Positions 17,154 to 29,574 of a stretch of 36,388 bases of DNA are shown piece after piece. The DNA is taken from assembly GCA_902553465.1 (NCBI GenBank), contig CACDKW010000006.1, forward strand, positions 1 to 36,388, in the 5' to 3' direction. Position numbers and translations under genes: made by a program. The stretch is from an uncultured Pelagibacteraceae bacterium. GTDB lineage: Bacteria > Pseudomonadota > Alphaproteobacteria > Pelagibacterales > Pelagibacteraceae. Position 1 is the stretch's first letter. Each line of letters opens with the position of its first letter. The notes below the pieces were generated by a model. The model had not been told where the DNA came from and searched no databases. It saw only the letters and a program-made list of their open reading frames with translations.

Positions 17154-17582
17154 TTATTTTTTTACCTCAGATTTAGGAGCATCAGCTTTTTTCTCTTCTG
17201 CTTTAGGAGCATCAGCTTTTTTCTCTTCTGCTTTAGGAGTATCAGTTGAAGCTTCACTTTTTGCTTCTCCTTCTTCTTTTTTTCTATCTTTTTTTGGTAT
17301 AGCTTTTTGCGGATTATTACCCTTTGCAGGCATTTCCATCATTTTGTTTTCACCAAGAATTCTTGCTACTCTTGTTGTAGGCTGAGCACCTTGGCTTAAC
17401 CAATATTTAATTCTTTCCTCCTCTAATCCTACTCTTTCTTTTTTCTCTTTTGGAAGCAAGGGATTAAAAAAACCAAGTTTTTCAATAAACCTTCCATCTC
17501 TTGCAAACCTACTGTCTGCTACTACAATTTTATATACGGGTCTTTTTTTTGTTCCTCCCATAGATAATCTAAGTTTTAACAT
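17154..17582 (-). CDS. rpsP: 30S ribosomal protein S16 with repetitive C-terminal extension
   Basis: 142 aa; [42 protein letters not shown]; tail of [10 protein letters not shown] repeats. Confidence 0.96.
17172..17246 (-). repeat. 30-bp in-frame tandem repeat (two full copies plus a partial copy) in the rpsP tail
   Basis: tttaggagcatcagcttttttctcttctgc at 17172-17201 and 17202-17231, then tttaggagtatcag...; encodes (P/S)KAEEKKADA repeats. Confidence 0.9.
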
Positions 17583-24724: not shown

Positions 24725-27376
24725 TTAGAAATTTAAAGATATATCACGGTGAATAGAGTTACAACTTGCAACAAATTTAGCCTGTTCTTTTGTTAAACGA
24801 GATTGTAGTCTTAAACCTATATTATTTTTAATAACCTCATTATATTTTTCAAGTTCTGGCACTAAATTTTGGGCTGCATCTTTTCTCCAATTTACTTCCT
24901 TTTCAAACAAAATAAATACTTCTGAGCTTGCATCTGAGATTTTATTTTCTTCTATTTCTTCACTATCAACTAAAGAATATAAATCATCTAGTCTATTGGC
25001 AAATTCCTCAGTGCCTGAAATTTCACTTAGTTTTTCAAATAGGCCATCTATAAGTGAAATTGAATTTTCATAATTTTTATTATTAATTTCATATTTTAAA
25101 TCTTTAATTTCAGGTGAAAGTTCATTTAATTTATCATTGTCTTTTATAAACATCGCGATTTGATCTAGATTATCATATGCCTCGTCTACATTTTTTTTAT
25201 ATCTTTTTGTTTGTGTATTTTTAGCTTTCTGAATAACTTCAAATTCTTTATTTTTAGATTCCCAATTTTCTGGGATTTGTTTTTCTATTTCATCGATTTC
25301 TAACTTATAATCCTCAATTTTCAGATCGATTTTATTTTTTTGTGCCACTTTATCTTTATCTAAATTTCTAATTTCTGCTTTAAGTTTTTCTATTTTATTA
25401 TCTATTTTTCTAATCTTTTTTTGTTTTTTTCTTACTTGGAAATGAAGGTCTCTATAATCTTCTGCAAATAAGTTATATTCATTCTCTGTTTTTTGAAGTT
25501 TTTTAACTAAAGCAAATGTGCCCAATGCATTTTCAAAATGTTCCTCGAAAATATCTAATTTATCATTTGGAAGATCAGAAGGAACAAGCTGTTCAAAACT
25601 TTTTATAGCAGCTGTGATTTTTTGCTCTTCATTATTATAGATATCAAATTTATATTCTTGTAAACAATGTTGAAGCTTAGGGTTCATTGGAGGAGGAGCC
25701 ACATGAGATGTTAAGTATGTTCTAGCGGGTAAATAGTTTACTAAACTTGGATAAAAACCTACAATTCCAAGTCCTATTAATTGTAATACTATGAAAGGAA
25801 CAACGCCTTTCCAAATATTTAGGGTTGTAATAAACTTGGGTGCAACACCTTTCAAATAAAATAAAGCAAAACCAAAAGGGGGAGTTAAAAAAGAAGTTTG
25901 TAAATTTACCCCAATCATTACACCCAACCATATTGCACTAACATTGGCTCCTGTTTCAGCTAATAATATTGGCGCAATAATAGGTACAACAACTACAGCA
26001 ATTTCTATAAAATCAAGGAAGAAACCTAAAAGAAAAATTACTGCCATTACAACAATAAATTGGGTCCAAAATCCACCTGGTAAATCTTGTAAAAAATCTC
26101 TTACTAATTCTTCACCTCCAAAGGCCCTAAAACCTGAGGTTAACATCGCTGCTCCCAGAAGAATTATAAATACCATGGAAGTAGTTACACAAGTTTCGGT
26201 AACAACTTCTTTTAAAACGTTATCAACTTTATAAGATCTCCAAAAACTCCAAATTATACCTATTAAAAAGAATAAAGTGAAAAAACCTGTTATAAAAATT
26301 GCAGTTAAGTTTCTAGTTTCTATAGCTTTGATGTTTAAATTATAATTGTTTGAAATAAAAAAAATTGGAATTAAAGCTATAACGGATATTAGTAATGGAT
26401 AATATGCATCTTTTTTACCTTGATGCAGACGATACCCAGCCATTATAGTTGCACCTATTGCACCAATAGAGCCAGCTTGGTTCACTGTTGCAATACCCAT
26501 TAATATAGATCCAAGAACTGCAAATATTAATGCAAGTGGTGGAATTATTACCATTATAACTTTCATCCAAAATTTAAAATCAAATTGACCTTTAAATGGA
26601 ACAGGAGGAGCTGCTCTAGGATTTAATCTTGCATATACAAATACATACAACATATACAAACCAACTAATACTAATCCAGGTAATAATGCTCCAAGAAACA
26701 TATCGCCAGCACTAGTAGAGCCTACTCTAAACTCGCCAGGCATATTAAATTCACCTGTTATTAATTTATAGTCTGCCTGTCTCATTGTATTTGCTACATC
26801 AGCAGCACTAGCTAATTGGTCTGCAATAATAATTAAAACAATTGATGGAGGAATTATTTGACCAAGTGTTCCAGATGAACAAACTATTCCACTTGCAAGA
26901 CTTCTATCATATTTATTATTCAACATAGTGGGCAATGAAATTAAGCCCATTGCAATTACAGTTGCTCCAACTATTCCCGTAGTTGCTGCAAGCAATGCTC
27001 CAACAAAAATTACTGAAATTCCAAGTCCTCCAGGGATAGGACCAAATAATTGACCCATAGTTACCAAAAGATCTTCAGCAATTTTAGATTTTTGCAACAT
27101 AATCCCCATGAAAATAAATAAAGGTATTGCGATTAAAGTATCAGTTTCCACATCCCAATAATTACTCCTAAAATTTGTAATTCCTGCTGTTAACCATTCT
27201 ATTGGTCCATCAGTTGCGTAATATGCACCCGCATCCCCTTCAAAAAGATATCCAAAGAAAGCTGCAGCACCTATTGAAATAATAGCTGAACCTGGTAATG
27301 CAAAAGCAACGGGGAAACCAGATGCCAACGCCACTATCATAATTAAAACAAGTAGAGTTAAAAATAAATGTTCCAT
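24725..27376 (-). CDS. TRAP transporter large permease (DctM) fused to a ~319-aa C-terminal coiled-coil-like region
   Basis: 883 aa; residues 1 to ~564 DctM-like (ASGFPVAFALPG, IPLFIFMGIML, GALLAATTGIVGATVIAMG, SSGTLGQIIPPSIVLIIIADQ, LGFFLDFIEIAVVVVPIIAPI, LTPPFGFALFYLKGVAP); from ~25684 down to 24725 a soluble Lys/Glu-rich region. Confidence 0.92.
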   Translation of the reverse strand: MEHLFLTLLVLIMIVALASGFPVAFALPGSAIISIGAAAFFGYLFEGDAGAYYATDGPIEWLTAGITNFRSNYWDVETDTLIAIPLFIFMGIMLQKSKIAEDLLVTMGQLFGPIPGGLGISVIFVGALLAATTGIVGATVIAMGLISLPTMLNNKYDRSLASGIVCSSGTLGQIIPPSIVLIIIADQLASAADVANTMRQADYKLITGEFNMPGEFRVGSTSAGDMFLGALLPGLVLVGLYMLYVFVYARLNPRAAPPVPFKGQFDFKFWMKVIMVIIPPLALIFAVLGSILMGIATVNQAGSIGAIGATIMAGYRLHQGKKDAYYPLLISVIALIPIFFISNNYNLNIKAIETRNLTAIFITGFFTLFFLIGIIWSFWRSYKVDNVLKEVVTETCVTTSMVFIILLGAAMLTSGFRAFGGEELVRDFLQDLPGGFWTQFIVVMAVIFLLGFFLDFIEIAVVVVPIIAPILLAETGANVSAIWLGVMIGVNLQTSFLTPPFGFALFYLKGVAPKFITTLNIWKGVVPFIVLQLIGLGIVGFYPSLVNYLPARTYLTSHVAPPPMNPKLQHCLQEYKFDIYNNEEQKITAAIKSFEQLVPSDLPNDKLDIFEEHFENALGTFALVKKLQKTENEYNLFAEDYRDLHFQVRKKQKKIRKIDNKIEKLKAEIRNLDKDKVAQKNKIDLKIEDYKLEIDEIEKQIPENWESKNKEFEVIQKAKNTQTKRYKKNVDEAYDNLDQIAMFIKDNDKLNELSPEIKDLKYEINNKNYENSISLIDGLFEKLSEISGTEEFANRLDDLYSLVDSEEIEENKISDASSEVFILFEKEVNWRKDAAQNLVPELEKYNEVIKNNIGLRLQSRLTKEQAKFVASCNSIHRDISLNF

Positions 27377-27379
27377 GGT

Positions 27380-28363
27380 TTAATTTTTTAAAAGCTTGTA
27401 ACTGCTACTCATAAAATAGCTTGTAAATTGAATTAACATACTTACAGCAAATACAGCTAGATATACCGCCATTAGATAAAGTAAATATAATCCGTTTGAT
27501 CCTTGTTGTGTAATTTCAAAAGATATAACAGGACCATTAATAATACTTGCTTTACCTCCCATTCCTAAAAACAAAACTATAAGACAAAGCGGAATACCTA
27601 ATACCAATGATCCGATTGAATTTGTCCAAGCTTTCTTTTTCTCACTGAAACCAGTGTATAAAACATCAACTCTCACATGACCTTCATGCATTAATGCATA
27701 TGCGCTAGCAAATAGATAAAGGGCAGAATACCAGAAACGAACTAAGTCTCCCTGAAAAGCTTGTTCATATTCGAATATAAATCTTGAAACTACAATAAAA
27801 AATTCACTAGCAACAACTAGAACAGCCAACCAAATAAAACCTACTGATCTTGTAAAATAACCAATTACAAAAGAAATTAATATTAAAGGAAAATGAACAA
27901 AGGTAATTCTAAAAGCTGGAATAACTAATTTAACTTTTAAAGTTTCCCCAAAAATTGGTTCAACTAATTTTTCTACAACCATAAATGAAACTATTAAATC
28001 TGCGATTCCAACAATCAAAACTGCCCAAAAAGATGAACGAATAATATAAGAAGTAAATTCCGTAAGAATTCTTGAGTCAGTTTCTAAAGTTTGTTTAATA
28101 GATTTAAATACATAGAAAATTGCTAATAATATTGAAATAAAATATAAAAATAATTGTATATAGGCTGTTGTTAATATTGAACCTTCTAAAGGGTTACTCA
28201 ATTTTTTAAATCCAAATAAGCCATAATGAGCAAATAATTTTTTAACACCAGGCCATTCAAACCAAACTGTTAAAATATTGTTAATTAGAAAAATAAAAGT
28301 AATAGCTAGTATCGAATAACTAAATATCCTTATAATTATCGGTAAATTACTTTTTGAAACCAT
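27380..28363 (-). CDS. TRAP transporter small permease (DctQ), enlarged
   Basis: 327 aa; C-terminal DctQ-like WYSALYLFASAYALMHEGHVRVDVLYTGFSEKKKAWTNSIGSLVLGIPLCLIV; preceded by extra hydrophobic segments; 3 bp from dctM. Confidence 0.88.
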   Translation of the reverse strand: MVSKSNLPIIIRIFSYSILAITFIFLINNILTVWFEWPGVKKLFAHYGLFGFKKLSNPLEGSILTTAYIQLFLYFISILLAIFYVFKSIKQTLETDSRILTEFTSYIIRSSFWAVLIVGIADLIVSFMVVEKLVEPIFGETLKVKLVIPAFRITFVHFPLILISFVIGYFTRSVGFIWLAVLVVASEFFIVVSRFIFEYEQAFQGDLVRFWYSALYLFASAYALMHEGHVRVDVLYTGFSEKKKAWTNSIGSLVLGIPLCLIVLFLGMGGKASIINGPVISFEITQQGSNGLYLLYLMAVYLAVFAVSMLIQFTSYFMSSSYKLLKN

Positions 28364-28390
28364 AAAATATAAAATTTTGTCTTATTAAAA

Positions 28391-28412
28391 AAGGGCCCTA
28401 AAAAGGGCCCTT
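28391..28412 (-). terminator. Rho-independent terminator/attenuator between the TRAP binding protein gene and the permease genes
   Basis: Perfect 9-bp stem AAGGGCCCT-AAAA-AGGGCCCTT (28391-28399 with 28404-28412); minus-strand transcript continues into a U6 tract. Confidence 0.85.
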
Positions 28413-28440
28413 AATTTTTTATATTATCAAACTTTAAGTA

Positions 28441-29574
28441 TTAAAGTCCTAAAGCTCTGTTTCTTTGAGCAATGTATGGTGAGTCTGACAAGTTTGTCCA
28501 AGCACCAATCTCTTTACGAGCTTTAACAAAAGCTTTATGCGTTCTAGCAGCAAGATCACTGTGTTGTTGAACTTCATCATAAACTTCAGCAGCACCTTTA
28601 GCAAAAGCATCGTAAACTTTGTCATTAAACTTCTCAAGTTTAACACCATGATCGTTTATTAAACGACCTAATGCTGCACCATTTTTAGCATTATACTCAG
28701 CCATTGTAATTTCATCTGCCCAAGCACACGCAGTTTTAATTATCATTTGGTCAGATTTAGTTAAACCTGTAAACCATGATTTATTAACACCACATGCTAA
28801 CATCGAACCAGGTTCGTGCATACCAGGATAGTAATAGTACTTAGCAGCTTCATGGAACTTCATAGCTTCGTCATTCCATGGACCTACCCATTCTGTTGCA
28901 TCGATTGCACCTGACACAAGGTTTTCATAAATTTGTCCACCAGGAAGTGAAATTGGAGAACCACCAAGTTTTCCAAGTACTTGTCCTCCTAATCCAGGCA
29001 TACGCATTTTTAAACCTTTTAGGTCGTTAGCTGATCTAATTTTTTTGTTAAACCAACCACCCATTTGAACTCCAGTGTTACCAGCTATGAAACTTTGAGT
29101 ACCAAAGTCATCAGTTAGCTCATCCCAAAGCGCTTGTCCTCCACCATGGTGAATCCAAGCATTGATTTCAGAATATGTGAAACCAAATGGGCACGCTGTA
29201 AAATATCCAAATGCTGGGTGTTTTTTAACCCAGTAGTAGTCTGCACCGTGATACATTTGCGAGTTACCAGAAGCGACTTCGTCAAATGAGTCAAATGCTT
29301 TAACTCTTTCGTTTGCAGCATAATAAGTAACTTGTATTCTTCCGTCACTCATATCGCTAAGTCTTTTTGCAAGTCTTTGTGCACCAGTACCTAAACCAGG
29401 AAAGTCTCTTGGCCAAGTAGCTACCATAGCTGCTTCTACTCTCTCTGCAGCAACTGCTGGAGCAGCTAAAGATGATGCAGCTACAGCAGCAACACCAGTT
29501 GCAGCAGCAGCTTTAAAGAACTTACGTCTTGAAGGTGATTTATTAACCTTCAATGATTTTTTTTCTTTAATCAT
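28441..29574 (-). CDS. TRAP transporter substrate-binding protein (TakP / lactate-binding type), Tat signal
   Basis: 377 aa; SRRKFFKAAAATGVAAVAASSLAAPAVAAE twin-Arg signal; DATEWVGPWNDEAMKFHEAAKYYYYPGMHEPGS resembles the TakP / calcium-lactate TRAP binding protein signature. Confidence 0.92.
   Translation of the reverse strand: MIKEKKSLKVNKSPSRRKFFKAAAATGVAAVAASSLAAPAVAAERVEAAMVATWPRDFPGLGTGAQRLAKRLSDMSDGRIQVTYYAANERVKAFDSFDEVASGNSQMYHGADYYWVKKHPAFGYFTACPFGFTYSEINAWIHHGGGQALWDELTDDFGTQSFIAGNTGVQMGGWFNKKIRSANDLKGLKMRMPGLGGQVLGKLGGSPISLPGGQIYENLVSGAIDATEWVGPWNDEAMKFHEAAKYYYYPGMHEPGSMLACGVNKSWFTGLTKSDQMIIKTACAWADEITMAEYNAKNGAALGRLINDHGVKLEKFNDKVYDAFAKGAAEVYDEVQQHSDLAARTHKAFVKARKEIGAWTNLSDSPYIAQRNRALGL

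Follow-up and report, generated by a model that had tools for sequence, protein, structure and literature searches.

TRAP importers in which the membrane component carries an additional domain at its C-terminal end have been described in the TAXI family. In VcGluQM, a TAXI-TRAP studied by Davies et al. in 2024, the claw (DUF3394) is modelled to bind its solute-binding protein (SBP), and the authors report that no DctP-type TRAP is known with such an extension (PMC11574862). The DctP-type systems SiaQM/HiSiaQM (7qha, 7qe5, 8thi) have the same permease fold as the protein studied here and are collinear with it to the last transmembrane (TM) helix; SiaM displays an N-out/C-out topology (PMC9971032). 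TakPQM, the 2-oxoacid TRAP of Rhodobacter sphaeroides, shares a TakP-family DctP (TakP, 2hzk) whose Gln, Glu-Trp and Glu ligands are aligned; a DctM tail is not reported for it in the open-licence papers covered. Outside the TRAP family, the maltose importer MalEFGK2 is a works-like analogue, as cited in PMC11574862, since a periplasmic docking part of its membrane component engages the SBP, although it is an ABC importer of an unrelated family. How TRAP permeases recruit their SBP, and why some TRAP SBPs are dimeric, are open questions (PMC8276074, PMC11574862).

The SAR11 locus reported here departs from SiaQM at three places: SiaM ends where a long tail starts, DctM adds a TM pair at 321-380, and DctQ adds four TM helices. 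Like the VcGluQM claw, the tail extends a TRAP membrane component at its C-terminal end, is placed in the periplasm and is proposed to make contact with the SBP. The claw, part of a TAXI system, consists mostly of beta-sheet and lies between the last two of three extra TM helices, whereas the tail is all-helical, belongs to a DctP-type system and is terminal, with no added TM. No sequence relation between the two was found; as a docking arm, the tail would be a non-homologous analogue of the claw.

A dctPQM operon with a tailed DctM and an enlarged DctQ

The operon is arranged in the order dctP-dctQ-dctM across positions 29574-24725 of the window, the whole stretch of 36,388 nucleotides that was analysed. 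Its features are:

28441-29574, minus strand: dctP, TakP-family 2-oxoacid solute-binding protein (2hzk, E 3e-71; 7ug8, E 3.9e-71)
28360-28445, minus strand: dctP-dctQ intergenic hairpin AGGGCCC-UUUUU-AGGGCCCUUUUUU, terminator/attenuator-like
27380-28363, minus strand: dctQ, enlarged small subunit of 327 aa with 8 predicted TM helices
24725-27376, minus strand: dctM, TRAP large permease with C-terminal tail, 883 aa, single open ORF
25712-27376, minus strand: DctM permease core, residues 1-555, PF06808, collinear with SiaT/SiaM up to the last residues
25751-25807, minus strand: last membrane helix of DctM, residues 524-542, in-to-out by the positive-inside rule

The dctM frame starts with ATG and is uninterrupted, and its product is a complete TRAP large permease followed by a soluble, helix-rich tail of about 320 residues. 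The PF06808 profile matches the N-terminal part with an E-value of 1.7e-60 and 205 bits (cut-off 23.8), and the core ends at about residue 555. The additional TM pair is shared with tail-less relatives and keeps the parity of the fold. The original observation of an intact permease-tail fusion is borne out by an ORF that is open throughout, with tail residues 565-883 encoded at 25684-24728. A frameshift or an assembly fusion is ruled out, the frame being open in all intact orthologues and in single-cell genomes; the nearest named loci are Pelagibacteraceae single-cell genomes and metagenome-assembled genomes, which places the window in a SAR11 genome. A separate tail ORF was not found in relatives, and the 324-aa frame of genome G095 stops at a contig end.

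Within DctQ, four extra TM helices, a part for which Pfam has no name, come ahead of the DctQ domain (residues 188-312). Helices were predicted for the DctQ of 16 tailed systems, and in each of them it is a long subunit with 7-8 predicted TM helices that matches nearly all of the window DctQ, while in the tail-less systems (9/9) DctQ has 195-243 aa and 3-5 predicted TM helices, and matches the DctQ domain only. The tail and the enlarged DctQ co-occur, as had been guessed from the window, and are one architectural package (16/16 tailed against 0/9 tail-less systems).

In DctP, the TakP ligands of Na+/pyruvate are conserved (Gln156, Glu214-Trp215 and Glu240 are aligned), which points to 2-oxoacids or close analogues as likely substrates; the C-terminal helix region of TakP, a helix-swapped homodimer, also aligns. 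The tailed SAR11 transporter thus probably takes up small 2-oxo/2-hydroxyacids. In SAR11, next to the operon lies a gene whose product we take, from its sequence, for a glycolate/lactate-type FAD-linked oxidase, and another tailed locus (L154) has as neighbours what are presumably FMN lactate dehydrogenase-like and 2-hydroxyacid dehydrogenase-like genes.

The gap between dctP and dctQ contains, at 28388-28411 of the minus strand, two AAAAAGGGCCCT copies that make a hairpin followed by a U-run. The RNA minimum free energy of the hairpin is -20.3 kcal/mol (z -2.5), and a GGGCCC...GGGCCC hairpin occupies the same gap in 13/13 SAR11 relatives viewed. Its probable role is that of an attenuator, through which DctP would be made in excess over QM.

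Elsewhere in the window, at 17172-17245, a 30-bp tandem repeat (2.5 copies, 97% matches) lengthens the C-terminus of an rpsP-like ORF (ribosomal protein S16) by a stretch rich in Lys, Ala and Glu.

Distribution and age of the tail

Within the genus, the tail is carried by all 12 genomes that have an intact orthologue, the window's own genome counted; these proteins have 883-887 aa and tails 49-84% identical to that of the window, well beyond what chance would give. Two partial tails (L013 and L014), treated as contig ends, bring the number of genus genomes with the tail to 14 of 37. The transporter is hence patchy within SAR11, and the tail is missing from the complete genus genome G012 as well as from G267 and G357. 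In the same survey of the genus, f2 matches (E 2.2e-4, residues 52-130, in a 661-aa frame) were read as coiled-coil cross-talk. In named records, 35 further loci match the tail, namely 34 from SAR11 and a spurious one (L081), a 43-residue match in a Flavobacteriaceae genome that has no profile match.

A profile of the tail only was found in 32 of 386 alphaproteobacterial genomes, representing 25 of 275 genera, and in these genomes the tail is always fused to DctM, save in one case cut by a contig end. Over the same 386 genomes, a profile of the SAR11 protein splits its matches into two groups: those of the first extend into the tail, with frames of 882-960 aa in nearly all, and those of the second end near residue 554, with frames of mostly 520-740 aa. 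A phylum-wide draw of 399 genomes returned the tail in seven, all from the class of the window, the class make-up of the remainder not being given. Among plasmid relatives (14 records) the matches stop at residue 550-592, without a tail, and no relatives were found on viral contigs.

When 29 non-SAR11 sequences are compared with the window protein, identity is 62-68% in the permease and 21-32% in the tail, and the tails contain 0-6 inserted residues relative to that of the window; in one of them 23 residues are deleted. Distances between pairs of sequences in the tail are correlated with those in the permease (Mantel r 0.83, a value reached in 0/2000 permutations), which indicates that the two were inherited together. 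In SAR11 pairs with dS 0.15-0.9, the permease has a median dN/dS of 0.05 and the tail as a whole one of 0.14, with 0.065 over the last 38 tail residues. The tail is under purifying selection, given its dN/dS of 0.14, in agreement with what had been suggested. The argument that a streamlined genome kept extra coding sequence does not hold in that form, as the tail is fixed and old in one DctM subfamily across Alphaproteobacteria. Sequence comparison thus indicates that the tail predates SAR11 and is not specific to it.

In at least eight non-SAR11 loci (L140, L141, L143, L145, L148, L151, L152 and L118) the tailed operon lies near genes that we take, by sequence recognition, to be bpt- and parC-like, and often also near genes recognised in the same manner as recO, era or bioY. 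Such stability of position is unusual for a transporter operon, and it suggests that the operon has long been passed on vertically in those lineages.

Fold of the tail and side of the membrane

The tail can be divided into the following parts:

24728-25684, minus strand: DctM C-terminal tail, residues 565-883, predicted to be an all-helical domain in the periplasm (AF2, mean pLDDT 78; conservation)
25646-25696, minus strand: N-terminal base of the tail, residues 561-577, PPPMNPKLQHCLQEYKF, conserved
25664-25666, minus strand: Cys571, invariant in 46/46 tails
25142-25567, minus strand: coiled-coil stalk, helices 604-671, 677-699 and 705-745 (AF2), hydrophobic period 3.4-3.6
24728-24841, minus strand: C-terminal segment of the tail, residues 846-883, ...IGLRLQSRLTKEQAKFVASCNSIHRDISLNF, conserved, dN/dS 0.065
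24761-24763, minus strand: Cys872, invariant in 46/46 tails, proposed disulfide partner of Cys571

The AF2 model of the tail alone contains a helix at 566-596, the three stalk helices, a bundle up to about residue 852 and a last helix at 863-881. The first stalk helix comprises 68 residues and would be about 10 nm long, and the hydrophobic periodicity of the stalk is compatible with a coiled coil. Confidence is low over about the last 35 residues, with 849-861 and 872-883 below pLDDT 50, and proximity of C571 and C872 is not visible in this model; a full-length DctM model based on 22 SAR11 sequences is poor on the permease (mean pLDDT 47.6). The tail is hydrophilic and has no hydrophobic segment, its 19-residue hydropathy maximum (KD) being 0.34, and its helices are highly charged and Lys-rich. 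The best-conserved stretches are residues 561-577 and 846-883, one at either end of the tail, whereas the stalk has kept its length and not its sequence; residues invariant across the class include N565, L568, C571, R649, W705, W830, R831, G854, C872 and F883. The label of coiled coil given to the whole extension thus fits its middle (604-745) but not its two ends, which form a more conserved base.

Searches of the tail in Pfam, NCBIfam, PDB sequences and, with Foldseek, PDB and BFVD structures returned nothing beyond generic coiled coils; Foldseek of the tail model against PDB and BFVD gave zero matches at E <= 0.001. In Pfam and NCBIfam, no family lies above its curated cut-off for the DctM residues past the core, with sub-threshold coiled-coil noise only. 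Matches to SMC/Rad50, EzrA and DivIC coiled coils are weak and scattered among members, those of the window protein being below curated cut-offs, and were rejected. The claw family DUF3394 is absent to E 10 in the Pfam search of the window protein, and from the 25 families listed for the 29 tails. A DctM coiled-coil or C-terminal extension was not found in the open-licence literature. The extension is, as claimed at the outset, unlike the usual DctM, being missing from tail-less relatives and unannotated in Pfam and NCBIfam; of the objection that it could be a common annotated feature of its subfamily, the first half is right and the second is not.

When the SAR11 profile is aligned with SiaT (7qe5, a chain of 616 residues), DctM residue 551 is matched to SiaT residue 612, and the two proteins are collinear through the last membrane helix, which means that the tail starts at the SiaM end. 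The loop 489-523, ahead of this helix, contains three Lys/Arg and no Asp/Glu, a cytoplasmic signature that, by the positive-inside rule, orients the helix from in to out. Furthermore, in the 46 tails examined Cys occupies the alignment columns of C571 and C872 every time and no other column, so that each tail has exactly two, and many permeases of tailed DctM have zero Cys. A lone invariant Cys pair is a mark of a disulfide. The pair thus suggests a C571-C872 disulfide and, with it, an oxidising compartment. DsbB, the oxidase partner, is present in 32 of 37 relatives and was not found in the window's own assembly, which is 58% complete. The tail is most likely periplasmic, a placement that is well supported by these comparisons.

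Possible roles of the tail

The reading that we consider most likely, with a probability of roughly 0.5, is that of an arm in the periplasm capturing, positioning or retaining DctP. The last DctM membrane helix would emerge into the periplasm and lead to the conserved base 561-577, then to the coiled-coil stalk and to a smaller helical bundle, and the return segment 846-883 would be clamped to the base via the C571-C872 disulfide; the conserved ends of the tail would be the parts that the proposed disulfide brings together. The arm would lie beside the periplasmic face used for DctP docking, where the TakP-type DctP could be captured, positioned or retained, leading to more efficient delivery of 2-oxo/2-hydroxyacids. 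We infer the disulfide, the docking role and the substrate class, and, from homology, the periplasmic side. Near-gapless tails at 21-33% identity argue for a structured domain, the co-occurrence with the enlarged DctQ also counts in favour of the arm, and the VcGluQM claw may be taken, by analogy, as a precedent for arm-SBP contact. The DctPs of tailed systems have 27 common positions that are rare or absent in tail-less ones, and a distinct, QRNRVLGL-like C-terminus; these clade-specific positions fit a matched docking surface, but they may reflect mere descent. TakP-like DctP occurs in tailed and tail-less systems alike, from which it follows that docking does not generally depend on a tail.

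At one locus (L118, G402:C4:560000-575000), a tail-less and a tailed DctQM are divergent and flank a dctP that is the sole one found within these 15 kb; a single binding protein may serve both architectures.

A cytoplasmic module is the common default reading of charged soluble C-terminal extensions, and the charged, Lys-rich helices would suit a domain that regulates or scaffolds on the cytoplasmic side. The positive-inside rule, the C-out topology of the fold and the invariant lone Cys pair speak against it, making this the least likely rival, with very little chance of being correct. Of the regulatory, scaffolding or clustering module originally suggested, for which no cellular side was given, cytosolic regulation thus becomes unlikely, since the evidence places the tail in the periplasm; scaffolding or clustering may still apply. 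On the periplasmic side, the tail might instead fold back onto the enlarged DctQ and the periplasmic loops of the permease, as a membrane brace with no docking role for DctP. The strict co-occurrence of tail and enlarged DctQ would agree with a brace, as would the fact that the best-conserved parts are the presumed membrane-proximal ends, but the length-conserved 68-residue stalk exceeds what a brace needs, and we regard this as quite improbable. The stalk, with a helix of about 10 nm on the periplasmic side, could also reach for peptidoglycan, the outer membrane or a porin, anchoring the importer in the envelope under an entry point. No known envelope-binding motif or family was matched, however, and the conserved residues lie at the presumed membrane-proximal tail ends and not in the stalk, so that an anchor is improbable as well.

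A periplasmic oligomerisation scaffold deserves more weight, while still being unlikely. Here the tails of two DctQM would join in an intermolecular coiled coil, and the transporters would thereby be paired in keeping with a dimeric TakP-type SBP. The long amphipathic helices of the tail are consistent with such an assembly, TakP is a helix-swapped dimer of unknown advantage (PMC1839085, PMC8276074), and the enlarged DctQ adds further to the membrane part. On the other hand, the sole predicted fold is that of a single chain, TakP-type DctP is also found in tail-less relatives, and known TRAP QM dimers are without a substantial protein interface (PMC10942642).

Returning to the arm that would contact DctP, we suggest tentatively, at slightly short of even odds, that a family of undescribed disulfide-clamped helical arms, fixed together with an 8-TM DctQ in a single alphaproteobacterial branch of the DctP-type TRAP importers, takes an active part in capturing or holding the SBP. 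As regards the extension itself, the tailed DctM family, conserved across many alphaproteobacterial genera, is a counter-example to the view that DctP-type systems have none. Moreover, tailed and tail-less sister systems, found side by side in one genome (L118), offer a natural comparison. If the proposed role is true, SBP-docking domains would have arisen more than once in TRAP importers, independently of the TAXI claw.
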